Shown here: positions 1-6,121 of the stretch, piece by piece
Layout of the letters: each line of letters starts with the position of its first letter
How positions within the stretch are numbered: position 1 is the stretch's first letter
Program-made: the position numbers and the translations under genes
Assembly: GCA_028290765.1 (NCBI GenBank)
Contig: JAQGJF010000077.1
Location: forward strand, 1 to 6,208
Reading direction: 5' to 3'
Length of the DNA: 6,208 bases
Source: Tardiphaga sp.
GTDB lineage: Bacteria > Pseudomonadota > Alphaproteobacteria > Rhizobiales > Xanthobacteraceae
Notes under the pieces: generated by a model
The model's database searches: none
The model's input: only the letters and a program-made list of their open reading frames with translations
Told to the model about the DNA's origin: nothing

Positions 1-52
1 CCGCCCAGCCGACTTCCAGCAATCCCGCGATGAAAAGCAGTATCCACGCCAT
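1..52 (-). CDS. sugE: SMR-family exporter, SugE/Gdx type (5' part only, cut by window edge)
   Basis: Reading leftward from the ATG at 52-50, the visible N-terminus is MAWILLFIAGLLEVGWA, and the gene then runs off the window. This is the first membrane helix of the small multidrug resistance family. It places a glutamate at residue 13, the position of the proton- and substrate-coupling Glu in known SugE/Gdx proteins. Family members are about 105 residues long with four helices, act as antiparallel dimers in the inner membrane, and export guanidinium (Gdx) or quaternary ammonium compounds in exchange for protons. A strong ribosome binding site, GGAGG (62-58), sits 5 nt before the ATG. The two-hairpin guanidine-II riboswitch just upstream favours the guanidinium-exporter (gdx) reading. 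Only 17 codons are visible, so the substrate class is inferred from N-terminus and leader together. The gene is divergent from prfC. Confidence 0.8.
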   Translation of the reverse strand, partial: MAWILLFIAGLLEVGWA

Positions 53-70
53 GACGGCCTCCGAAACGAT

Positions 71-116
71 GCAGGGCCGTCCCTACGATGCGATGATGGA
101 TTGGAGGTCGTCCTCC
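71..116 (-). promoter_or_regulatory. Guanidine-II (mini-ykkC) riboswitch
   Basis: On the minus strand two short hairpins precede the SMR exporter. P1 (116-103) is GGAGG-ACGA-CCTCC, with a perfect 5-bp stem. P2 (86-71) is GTAGGG-ACGG-CCCTGC, with 6 pairs including one G.U wobble. Both loops fit the ACGR tetraloop that defines the guanidine-II class, in which each loop binds a guanidinium ion and the two loops kiss through their CG bases. The 16-nt linker is within the usual range, and SMR exporters are classic targets of this class. Control looks translational: GACGGCC in P2 (81-75) is exactly complementary to GGCCGTC (59-53), which overlaps the ribosome binding site. The loop plus 3' arm of P1 (111-103) pairs with 62-54 at 8 of 9 positions. 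Guanidine-stabilised hairpins should therefore free the ribosome site. The match is by eye; no covariance model was run. Confidence 0.85.
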
Positions 117-121
117 GGCCT

Positions 122-152
122 CTTATATGTCGCGGAACAGGCTGGCTCGCAA
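122..152 (-). promoter_or_regulatory. Possible promoter for riboswitch and SMR gene
   Basis: On the minus strand TATAAG (127-122) matches the -10 consensus at five of six positions. TTGCGA (152-147) is a possible -35. The spacer is 19 nt, or 17 nt if the overlapping CATATA (129-124) is used instead. Either choice puts the transcript start near 115-119, at the foot of riboswitch hairpin P1, which supports the call. The AT-rich core also reads TATATG on the plus strand (124-129), so it might be shared with a divergent prfC promoter (TTGGAG 101-106, 17-nt spacer), but that match is weak. Confidence 0.4.
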
Positions 153-211: not shown

Positions 212-1831
212 ATGTCCGACATTGCTCTCACCACCGTATCGCCCGCGCGCGCCCAGCTCGCCATGGAAGTGGCGCGCCGGCGGACCTTTGCGATCATCTC
301 GCATCCCGACGCCGGCAAGACCACGCTGACCGAAAAGCTGCTGCTGTTCGGCGGTGCCATCAATCTCGCCGGCCAGGTCCGGGCCAAGGGCGAACGCCGC
401 AGCACCCGCTCCGACTGGATGAAGATCGAGCGCGACCGCGGCATCTCGGTGGTGACCTCGGTGATGACCTTCGAGTTCAACGACCTCGTGTTCAACCTCC
501 TGGACACGCCGGGCCATGAAGACTTTTCCGAAGATACCTATCGGACCCTGACGGCGGTCGATTCCGCGGTGATGGTGATCGACGCCGCCAAAGGCATCGA
601 GGCGCGGACGTTGAAGCTGATCGAGGTTTGCCGGCTGCGCGATATTCCGATCATCACCTTCGTCAACAAGATGGACCGCGAGAGCCGCGACACCTTCGAT
701 CTGCTCGACGAGATCGAAAAGACCCTGGCGCTGGACACCACACCGATAACCTGGCCGGTCGGCCGCGGCCGCGATTTTCTCGGCACCTATGATATTGCCA
801 CCGGCGGCATCCGGCTGCTCGAAGGCGGCGGCGCCAAGACTGGTGCAGCGGAACAGATCGACGTCGCCGAACTTGCCGGCCGCAACAAGAATCTCGACGT
901 CGCCGAGATCACCGAGGAACTGGCGCTGGTCTCGCAGGCCTGCAAGCCGTTCGACCTCGCTTCGTTTCGCGAGGGCCACATGACGCCGGTCTATTTCGGC
1001 TCGGCACTGCGCAATTTCGGCGTCGGCGATCTGCTCGAAGGCCTCGGAAAATTCGCGCCGCCGCCGCGCGCGCAGGACAGCAATCTGCGCAAGGTGGAAG
1101 CCAGCGAGCCGCAGATGTCCGCCTTCGTGTTCAAGATCCAGGCCAATATGGATCCGAACCACCGTGACCGCATCGCCTTTGCCAGATTGTGCTCCGGCAA
1201 GCTGACGCGCGGCATGAAGGCCAAACTGGTGCGAACCGGCAAGAACATGTCGCTGTCGTCGCCGCAATTCTTCTTCGCGCAGGATCGCGCCCTGGCGGAT
1301 GAAGCCTTCGCCGGCGATGTGGTCGGCATTCCCAACCACGGCACGCTGCGGATCGGCGACACGCTGACCGAAGGCGAGGACATCACCTTTGTCGGCGTGC
1401 CGAGCTTCGCGCCGGAAATCGTCCGCCGCGTCCGGCTCACCGACGCCATGAAGGCCAAGAAGCTCAAGGAGGCGTTGCAGCAGATGTCGGAGGAGGGCGT
1501 CGTGCAGGTGTTTCGCCCGCGCGACGGCGCGCCGGCGCTGGTCGGCGTGGTCGGCCCGCTGCAGCTCGACGTGCTGAAAGCGCGGCTGCAGGCCGAATAT
1601 CAGCTGCCGGTGGATTTCGAAGTCTCGGAATTTCAGCTGGCTCGCTGGAATTCAAACGACGACCTCAAGAAGATCGATGCCTTCATCGCCACCAACGGCT
1701 CCGGCGTCGCCGACGACGTCGATGGCGATCCGGTGTTCCTGGCCAAGAACGAGTTCTATCTTGGCTACACCAAGGAACGCGCCGAGGGCATTGTGTTTTC
1801 CAGCATCAAGGATGTGAAGAAGACCGGGTGA
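212..1831 (+). CDS. prfC: Peptide chain release factor 3 (RF3)
   Basis: RF3 is a translational GTPase that removes RF1 or RF2 from the ribosome after peptide release, so that they recycle. The 539-residue product is close to the usual size (E. coli, 529). The GTPase domain carries the P-loop SHPDAGKT (residues 30-37), the switch I RGIS (77-80), DTPGH (98-102) and NKMD (152-155). The P-loop form HPDAGKT, rather than the HVDHGKT of elongation factors, is typical of RF3. The rest follows the family through the beta-barrel domain (ANMDPNHRDRIAFARLCSG) and the C-terminal region (EGVVQVFRPRDGAPALVGVVG). The ATG at 212 was chosen over the upstream in-frame ATG at 101 because MSDI... fits the family N-terminus and AGG lies 7 nt before it; the ATG at 263 has no ribosome site. 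The gene is complete, appears monocistronic, and converges on the TetR gene. Confidence 0.96.
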   Translation: MSDIALTTVSPARAQLAMEVARRRTFAIISHPDAGKTTLTEKLLLFGGAINLAGQVRAKGERRSTRSDWMKIERDRGISVVTSVMTFEFNDLVFNLLDTPGHEDFSEDTYRTLTAVDSAVMVIDAAKGIEARTLKLIEVCRLRDIPIITFVNKMDRESRDTFDLLDEIEKTLALDTTPITWPVGRGRDFLGTYDIATGGIRLLEGGGAKTGAAEQIDVAELAGRNKNLDVAEITEELALVSQACKPFDLASFREGHMTPVYFGSALRNFGVGDLLEGLGKFAPPPRAQDSNLRKVEASEPQMSAFVFKIQANMDPNHRDRIAFARLCSGKLTRGMKAKLVRTGKNMSLSSPQFFFAQDRALADEAFAGDVVGIPNHGTLRIGDTLTEGEDITFVGVPSFAPEIVRRVRLTDAMKAKKLKEALQQMSEEGVVQVFRPRDGAPALVGVVGPLQLDVLKARLQAEYQLPVDFEVSEFQLARWNSNDDLKKIDAFIATNGSGVADDVDGDPVFLAKNEFYLGYTKERAEGIVFSSIKDVKKTG

Positions 1832-4786: not shown

Positions 4787-4923
4787 TGGTATTTTTGGAC
4801 GGCGGCAATTTCAGCCGTGGCCGTTCCGGGGCGGGCTCATGCGGATGTGAACGTCTTGAGCTTGATTATGCGATGCGGCTCCATCATGTCAGTCGGGCAG
4901 GGTGTGTTGCAAAGGTCACGGTC

Positions 4924-5538
4924 ATGTTGCGGCGCATACTTTTTCCCTTGATGGCGATTGTAGCCGTCGCGGCGTTGGTCGGGCCGTCAAGCGCCCGCGA
5001 GCGGCGGCAGTTCAATCCGCTGCCGTTCTCCCATTCGCCATGCAGCGTGCTGGCGGGCGAGCCCTGCACGCCGTCCTTTTGCAGCGTGTTCAACCACGGC
5101 CCGTGTCTTCCGGAGCTCGATTACCCGATCGGCGAGAATCTGCAGCTCACGGTTCAAAGCCAGCCGGCGAGCGGCGATGCGGCGAAATACCAAAAGCCCG
5201 ACCACGACCTCGACAACATCGGCGACCTGTTCGCCGCGTTGCGGGCGTGCTGGTCGCCACCGCCGGCGGACGCCGCGCGAGAGGGCATGCAGATGTCGGT
5301 AATGTTCAGTTTCAAGAAGGCCGGCACACCGATCGCGCCGCCGCGCCTCACCTATGCCACGCCGGACACGCCGAAGGATATTCGCGACACTTATCTCAAG
5401 GCGATCAATACCTCGCTCGACGGCTGCACGCCGTTGACCTTCAGCAAGGGCCTCGGCGACGCCATCGCCGGCCGTCCCATCATGATCCGCTACGTGGACA
5501 ATCGGACGATCGACAACAAGCAATCCGGCACGCCGTGA
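4924..5538 (+). CDS. Exported protein of unknown function, cysteine-rich N-terminus, paralog 1
   Basis: The 204-residue product starts with a signal peptide: MLRR, then a hydrophobic run (residues 5-20), with likely cleavage near PSSA (21-24). So it probably acts in the periplasm. Residues 40-61 form a cysteine-rich stretch (C40, C48, C53, C61). From residue 71 on, the protein is a clear relative of the next gene: KYQKPDHDLDNIGDL, RACWSPP, GMQMSVMFSF, APPRLTY, a second conserved cysteine (C168) and GDAIAGRPIMIRYVD. The LRxCWxPP start, VxFSF strand and later CxPL element recall TonB/TolA C-terminal domains of alphaproteobacteria, but this is only a resemblance. The ATG at 4924 was chosen because AAAGG (4911-4915) lies 8 nt before it and it opens the signal peptide; the in-frame ATG at 4873 does not. 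The name and role are not recognised. Confidence 0.85.
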   Translation: MLRRILFPLMAIVAVAALVGPSSARERRQFNPLPFSHSPCSVLAGEPCTPSFCSVFNHGPCLPELDYPIGENLQLTVQSQPASGDAAKYQKPDHDLDNIGDLFAALRACWSPPPADAAREGMQMSVMFSFKKAGTPIAPPRLTYATPDTPKDIRDTYLKAINTSLDGCTPLTFSKGLGDAIAGRPIMIRYVDNRTIDNKQSGTP

Positions 5539-6081
5539 GGCGGCCTGGCGGTTGCCAGTGAACTTTGCGTGAGCGGACTTGAGAGCTCCGATCGAGCGCA
5601 CGATCATCGACTGGAACCAACGCGGAGGATGATCGATGATGCGGCGAATGGTTGCGGGAATTCTGTTCGTCGTTGCCGGTGTGATATTCGCAGGCCCGGC
5701 GGACGCGGAGCTGCTCAGCGACGATCTGATGTTGACGGTGGTCAGTCCGCCCCCCGTCGGTGCCGCCGACGAATACCAAAAGCCGGATCACGATCTCAAT
5801 ACGCTCGACGATCTCTATGCGACGTTACGATCGTGCTGGTCGCCGCCGCTCGCGTCCGACGCGGTCCGGGGCATGCAGGTGACCGTGCTGTTCTCGTTCG
5901 ACACTGCGGGACGGACCATCGCCGCGCCGCGTTTAAATTACAGCCCGCCCGGAGCGCCCGGCGCTACGGTCGAGGCCTATCTCAAATCCGTCACGACCTC
6001 GCTCGCGGCCTGTCAGCCGCTCAAGCTGACCCCTGCGCTGGGCGATGCCATCGCCGGCCGTCCGATCATGATCCGCTACGT
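5461..6081 (+). repeat. Nearly identical 35-bp segments in the two paralogs (5461-5495 and 6047-6081)
   Basis: The segments encoding AIAGRPIMIRY match at 34 of 35 bases between the two genes, including synonymous positions, whereas most of the rest has diverged. This supports duplication in tandem, with either strong constraint or local gene conversion at the 3' ends. The coordinates span both copies. Confidence 0.7.
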
Positions 6082-6121
6082 CGACACCAGGACGCTATCG
6101 AAACAGTCCGGCGCGAAGTGA
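5636..6121 (+). CDS. Exported protein of unknown function, paralog 2
   Basis: The 161-residue product has a signal peptide: MMRRM, a hydrophobic core (about 6-20) and a likely cut after PADA (21-24). The mature protein matches residues 71-204 of the preceding gene product almost end to end: YQKPDHDL (47-54), RSCWSPP (65-71), GMQVTVLFSF (79-88), AAPRLNY (96-102), C126 and GDAIAGRPIMIRYVD (136-150). It lacks the four-cysteine N-terminal segment of its neighbour. The two shared cysteines (C67, C126) could form a disulfide in the periplasm. GGAGG (5624-5628) stands 7 nt before the ATG, a better ribosome site than that of the first copy. The gene follows after 97 bp and may be co-transcribed. Function unknown; the same weak TonB/TolA C-terminal resemblance applies. 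Confidence 0.87.
   Translation: MMRRMVAGILFVVAGVIFAGPADAELLSDDLMLTVVSPPPVGAADEYQKPDHDLNTLDDLYATLRSCWSPPLASDAVRGMQVTVLFSFDTAGRTIAAPRLNYSPPGAPGATVEAYLKSVTTSLAACQPLKLTPALGDAIAGRPIMIRYVDTRTLSKQSGAK

Follow-up and report, generated by a model that had tools for sequence, protein, structure and literature searches.

How would an RNA with a guanidine-binding motif hide, and then release, the SD of the exporter gene behind it? The question is raised by the first bases of the window, by which we mean the whole stretch of DNA analyzed (6,208 nucleotides). Here a riboswitch motif on the minus strand sits between the divergent gene prfC and an SMR gene that is cut at the window edge (Table 1).

Table 1. 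Features of the riboswitch locus and its neighbours, in window coordinates.
Feature	Position	Strand	Details and basis
SMR (Gdx/SugE-type) exporter gene, start	1..52	-	17 codons visible; read by eye
SD and spacer	53..62	-	SD GGAGG 62-58, spacer CCGUC 57-53; sequence
Putative anti-SD strand within P2	75..81	-	GACGGCC; 7/7 pairs with 59-53
P2 hairpin	71..86	-	GUAGGG-ACGG-CCCUGC, loop ACGG 80-77; Rfam match
Linker between P1 and P2	87..102	-	16 nt
P1 hairpin	103..116	-	GGAGG-ACGA-CCUCC, loop ACGA 111-108; Rfam match
-10-like box	124..129	-	CATATA; would place the RNA start near 117, where P1 begins
-35-like hexamer	147..152	-	TTGCGA; 17 bases ahead of the -10-like box; tentative, read from sequence
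prfC, peptide chain release factor 3	212..1831	+	Pfam RF3_C and GTP_EFTU; divergent neighbour

The riboswitch motif and its target gene

An Rfam scan matched the minus strand from 119 to 72 to the guanidine-II model RF01068 with 37.6 bits (E 6.3e-5), above the gathering score of 32, and no other Rfam match at E ≤ 1 was found in the window. This covariance-model result bears out the initial annotation, which had read two ACGR-loop hairpins here and assigned them to the guanidine-II class. P1 has 5 pairs (-8.1 kcal/mol) and P2 has 6 pairs, one of them a G-U (-9.4 kcal/mol). Besides exceeding the curated cut-off, the RNA has both ACGR hairpins closed by G-C pairs, the 16-nt linker and a nearby exporter gene, with the ATG 18 nt past P2 and 17 codons that fit an SMR protein. 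Judged by its sequence, the motif looks like a genuine guanidine-II riboswitch, a known class, and would bind guanidine. The window RNA is a further example of this established type and ordinary in itself: it shares with the class (mini-ykkC, RF01068, sugE/gdx type) the two ACGR hairpins, the linker and the SD of an SMR gene downstream, and no difference other than ordinary sequence variation was found.

The start codon and Glu13 that had been pointed out at the window edge are indeed visible: the ATG lies at 52-50, and the 17 codons, read by eye, translate to MAWILLFIAGLLEVGWA, Glu13 included. The earlier assignment of the target to the SMR type is supported by these codons and by the SugE genes of relatives, since the full SMR genes of L222 and L010 match NCBIfam NF008512 with 151.9 and 143.1 bits (cut-off 126). 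The complete downstream gene presumably encodes an SMR guanidinium exporter.

The arrangement beside prfC recurs. Using the hairpin pattern, prfC was found divergent at 136 of 160 collected SMR-linked riboswitch loci, the window included. Among the best 80 of 590 prfC matches, the closest relatives belong to Bradyrhizobium, Afipia and bins named only Xanthobacteraceae or Hyphomicrobiales, and RF01068 scored over the cut-off beside prfC in 6 of 19 loci of these closest relatives. The source bacterium looks Bradyrhizobium-like. The guanidine-II motif is common in the family of genome G001, since 205 of its 391 genomes bear RF01068 matches at E ≤ 0.01, ahead of various genes; the cut-off is exceeded in 169 of the 391. 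An order-wide pattern search (P2 plus GGAGG) was positive in 18 of 397 genomes, and these loci were added to the pool described below. A plasmid search with window bases 1-2000 returned 8 records, with every match confined to the prfC portion of the query.

Several other arrangements were seen in passing. A second big guanidine-II group in the family of G001 (L088-L096, L098, L100-L104, L106-L108, L110-L116) has another gene downstream, mostly a frame of 269-281 aa (MILTEEQ.../MTVSVETQ...), and its spacers appear by eye unlike the window's type. At L185-L188, L190, L218, L175 and L173 the gap from P2 to the SMR start is 63-98 nt, against the usual gap of mostly 13-25 nt, and the SD region still matches P2 by 5-7 contiguous pairs' worth. 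Far from the riboswitch, the window holds two adjacent look-alike frames of 205 and 161 aa on the plus strand (4921-5538, YQKPDHDL...; 5636-6121, IAGRPIMIRYVD), neither of which has a Pfam match at E 0.001.

Predicted folding of the window RNA

We consider it likely that this guanidine-II riboswitch lets an SMR guanidinium exporter be translated when guanidine is present, and that P2 serves as the anti-SD partner. Without guanidine, P1 would be folded, and the loop and 3' arm of P2 (81-75) would pair with the SD and spacer (59-53) and hide GGAGG. Guanidinium would bind the two ACGR loops as a kissing pair, which would keep P2 folded and free the SD. This explanation is favoured because of the Rfam match, the predicted ensemble (SD-P2 0.78), the shuffling controls and the likeness to E. 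coli gdx; against it, 55 of the 150 loci compared below have a main SD partner other than P2, or none.

The complementarities behind this reading had been noted before and hold up on inspection: 81-75 of P2 pairs with 59-53 exactly (7/7), and 111-103 of P1 pairs with 62-54 at 8 of 9 positions, the sole miss being an A.C. From these matches the initial annotation had concluded that either pairing would hide GGAGG, and had suggested a two-step control in which both hairpins compete for it. For the window's transcript the first claim is supported as regards P2 but not P1. The ensemble predicted without ligand has P1 formed at 0.97 and P2 at 0.03, and the SD pairs with P2 at 0.78 and with P1 at 0.02. 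The structure with P1 and the 7-pair P2/SD helix has an energy of -20.6 kcal/mol, compared with -17.5 kcal/mol for P1 plus P2 and -16.8 kcal/mol for P1/SD with P2 folded. Two-step control by P1 and P2 was therefore rejected for the window on these energies (-16.8 against -20.6 kcal/mol) and on the SD-P1 share of the ensemble; P1/SD with P2 is less stable even than the two hairpins side by side.

The prediction was stable towards the choice of transcript ends, with SD-P2 at 0.78-0.80 in 22 of 25 combinations. When all 52 coding bases and at least 2 nt of 5' flank were included (4 of 25 settings), P1 was predicted to be open in all four and SD-P2 stayed.

Shuffling controls were run on the window alone. 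The free-minus-forced energy (forced to P1 plus P2) is -4.37 kcal/mol, a test that is weak alone because 16% of 300 shuffles do as well. A contiguous P2/SD duplex at least as good as the real one arose in 5.3% of 300 SD-keeping shuffles and in 2% when the bases around the SD were drawn at random. The P2/SD complementarity of the window is above chance, though only modestly for one RNA. The contiguous P1/SD run of 5, namely the SD against CCUCC, was attained by every shuffle. The fold of 160 nt as a whole is uninformative (z -1.51, 17 of 200 shuffles as stable).

That the motif has decayed or arisen by chance and does not switch is hardly credible, as it scores above the Rfam cut-off with both loops and stems intact and keeps a conserved place beside prfC and ahead of an SMR gene, even if the energy gap of the window is in itself unexceptional.

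Comparison over 150-160 loci

Loci were pooled from prfC similarity (best 80 of 590) and from the best-scoring RF01068 matches; weak or lost riboswitches are under-sampled, because loci were taken from the best-scoring matches. Three of 163 hairpin-pair entries were dropped, because P2 lay too near the start or because the entry parsed one gene a second time, which left 160. Fold statistics cover the 150 loci with 12-26 nt from P2 to the ATG, 10 with an unusual distance being left out. The window itself is counted in the sets of 160, 150, 136 and 67 loci.

P2 was the main predicted SD partner in 95 of the 150 loci. P1 took this place in 17 loci, bases elsewhere between P2 and the ATG in 13, the linker in 9 and the coding region in 6, with no partner in 10. 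The closing pair fell below 0.5 for P2 in 116 loci and for P1 in 32. Shuffling around the SD weakened the predicted switch: mean SD-P2 fell from 0.54 to 0.22 and P2 folding rose from 0.23 to 0.62. When the downstream part was exchanged between loci, these values were 0.44 and 0.37. The effect lies mainly in loci with the spacer type of the window (GG, two pyrimidines, GU), where mean SD-P2 was 0.71 (75 loci), compared with 0.36 in the other 75.

The free-minus-forced energy had a median of -5.2 kcal/mol, compared with -0.8 kcal/mol for shuffles, and lay below -2 in 79% of loci and 32% of shuffles. The Mann-Whitney test on this gap (p 2.5e-34) ignores kinship and was not relied on. At the level of single duplexes the two hairpins scored alike. 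The P2 duplex beat 95% of SD-keeping shuffles in 28% of the 150 loci and the P1 duplex in 27%; with random bases around the SD, the shares were 51% and 49%. A contiguous duplex score of at least 7 was reached by P1 in 87 loci, by P2 in 77 and by both in 73, and the counts for P1 and for both hairpins speak for a switch in which each of them holds the SD.

A slid control was applied to the 67 loci with an 18-nt gap, which amount to 33 distinct rows with many close kin. P2/SD cells could pair at 95.7% in register and at no more than 55.6% when slid by 1-3 bases; for P1/SD the values were 94.7% and at most 61.9%. Since P1 and P2 are equally strong here, the test does not separate them, and a double switch draws as much support from it as the P2/SD helix.

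Conservation was read from the same 67 loci. Spacer bases -5 to -1 carry 1.45, 1.10, 1.89, 1.81 and 1.28 bits. The bases just ahead of the SD (-14 to -12) carry 0.37-0.72 bits, and the linker, its last two bases apart, 0.08-0.68 bits. Bases -18, -17 and -15, which lie between P2 and the SD, are well conserved (1.54, 1.30 and 1.35 bits), a pattern for which the P2/SD helix in its present form gives no reason. At position -4, 50 loci have C, 16 have T and 1 has G; being nearly always C or T, this base almost always keeps its pair with the loop G when it changes.

Covariation and near relatives

The loops of P1 and P2 are alike, which leaves just the R base and the arms to distinguish the two hairpins as SD partners. 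Covariation between loop R and spacer Y was counted in 140 of the 163 rows, those with C or T at Y; 12 lacked the required spacer form and 11 had A. For P2 the raw association runs in the pairing direction (Fisher p 0.0009), and for P1 it runs opposite to pairing (p 0.0025). On a tree of prfC plus SMR DNA, P2 had about 2.2 supported pairs for and 0.3 against, and P1 had 0.6 for and 0.7 against; with this tree, which covers 122 of 136 rows, the count is significant for neither hairpin, nor able to reach significance. The sequence covariation points to P2 and is not significant once kinship is counted.

Near relatives differ in the hairpin that is predicted to capture the SD: the window and L222 would use P2, whereas L219 and L010 would use P1. 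The loop R-spacer Y pair is G-C in the window and in L222, A-U in L219, which differs from the window on both sides of the pair, and an A.C mismatch in L010. In L219 the SD pairs with P1 at 0.78; in L010 it is held by P1 at 0.56 and by the coding region at 0.42; and in L229 it is predicted to be shared evenly between P1 and P2. With P1 as main partner at 17 of the 150 loci, L219 and L010 among them, a potential for P1/SD pairing exists in the family. On the modelled fold energies, the decision for the window is for P2, and the bacterial family seems free to use either hairpin.

This variation allows a broader reading, which we put forward tentatively and consider less likely than not. In this bacterial family, the SD and spacer may have evolved as a copy of the 5' strand and loop of the hairpins, so that either hairpin could capture them with its loop as a toehold, the ligand would compete, and the capturing hairpin would drift among relatives. 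Ligand and SD capture would compete directly, because the captured bases are those of the guanidine-binding, kissing loops.

A double anti-SD switch, with P1 and P2 both holding the SD and control in two steps, is unlikely. The 8-of-9 match of P1, its role as main partner in loci such as L219 and L010 and the even share in L229 are what one would expect of it; but the loops of P1 and P2 are of one kind, so that much of the P1 match comes free, the covariation for P1 does not follow suit, and in the window itself the folding energies go the other way.

Other guanidine-II systems and the start of the RNA

Capture of the SD by P2 is not new in kind, because Huang et al. (2017; PMC5486947) already suggested for G. 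violaceus an OFF stem-loop that overlaps P2 and the SD. The initial annotation had named this instance and its double arrangement as the point of interest; the P2 half has a precedent. In the passage concerned the suggestion is made for one sequence, whereas here it is examined by folding and by comparison over 150 loci. A fuller published account of the P2-SD reading than that passage may exist. A literature search for guanidine-II together with Bradyrhizobium gave a match on Nitrospirales only.

For E. coli K-12 gdx, the identical computation gave P1 at 0.99, P2 at 0.10 and SD-P2 at 0.64, so that gdx (sugE) shares with the window a predicted P2/SD hairpin with P1 kept. In caesium-resistant E. 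coli with constitutive gdx, 20 bp are lost from -30 to -11 (PMC13064478); judged from the K-12 sequence, this deletion removes P2 together with the stretch from there to the SD. The authors, who measured expression by RNA-seq, presume that the SD becomes exposed once the P2 loop is lost, and the deletion fits P2 as the repressing element.

Published models place the anti-SD elsewhere. In E. coli gdx the linker is named (PMC9300104), unlike the P2 strand favoured here, and PMC9094411 likewise places the anti-SD in the linker. Like the switch proposed for the window, that of P. aeruginosa turns on translation of a multidrug-type exporter. There, the 5' flank and linker form a P0 helix that sequesters the SD, a model backed by mutants (PMC9561414); expression platforms therefore differ. 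For the window, a linker or 5'-flank helix as the holder of the SD is quite improbable. Such pairing took the SD in 3 of 25 settings, those in which the transcript had at least 4 nt of 5' flank but just 3 coding bases (linker 0.40-0.43, flank 0.30-0.32), but was 0.0 in the other 22, and the linker is the main partner in just 9 of the 150 loci.

The start of the RNA bears on the flank as well. The CATATA box 17 bases past TTGCGA, together with a CATA(T/C) box that lies 17-20 nt ahead of the P1 loop in 109 of 136 prfC-linked loci including the window (a count without a chance control), suggests that transcription probably begins where P1 does, near base 117. The promoter reading is tentative because a strict sigma-70 scan of window bases 1-260 found none. 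Such a start would leave almost no 5' flank, whereas the P0 helix of P. aeruginosa draws on one. On the plus strand, the complement of P1 at 101-118 resembles a terminator, a hairpin followed by T-rich bases, and is probably a by-product of P1.

Models disagree on the route from the guanidine-II aptamer to the SD (through the linker, the 5' flank or P2), and the prfC-adjacent family offers many natural variants in one conserved place in which the P2-SD model could be tested by simple mutations.

A second atpB behind guanidine-II riboswitches

The most unusual thing met lies outside the window. At nine loci (L364-L371, from G204, G186, G255, G267, G211, G161, G072 and G194, and L380, from G174), a second atpB, for subunit a of the F0F1 ATP synthase, is located apart from the canonical gene and is preceded by a guanidine-II riboswitch. 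Both copies scanned (from L105 and L194) match the NCBIfam equivalog NF004482. The riboswitch is present in 9 of 9, the first 8 genomes having been chosen for their riboswitch matches; the hairpin pattern detects it in 7 of these 8, and RF01068 matches in the eighth (G161) and in G174. A literature search for guanidine riboswitches with an ATP synthase subunit found no paper, one with the gene name atpB matched two, and "ATP synthase" is absent from the main text of three papers on guanidine-riboswitch genes.

An SMR gene follows the second atpB in 7 of 8 loci examined, and in 4 of 8 an ACGR hairpin pair of its own lies between the two genes. The canonical atpB has no such hairpin pair at any of 8 loci, and at 7 of the 8 a 75-aa atpE-like frame comes next; at the remaining one the contig ends. 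The second atpB keeps the arginine of SVRLFA, which we take to be the essential arginine of subunit a, and in all 8 cases carries Val where the canonical subunit has Asn (canonical residue 179). The second atpB is perhaps a guanidine-induced, and perhaps guanidine-tolerant, subunit a. Of 29 genomes in the genus of G001, 5 have a copy with 93% identity or more to the query.
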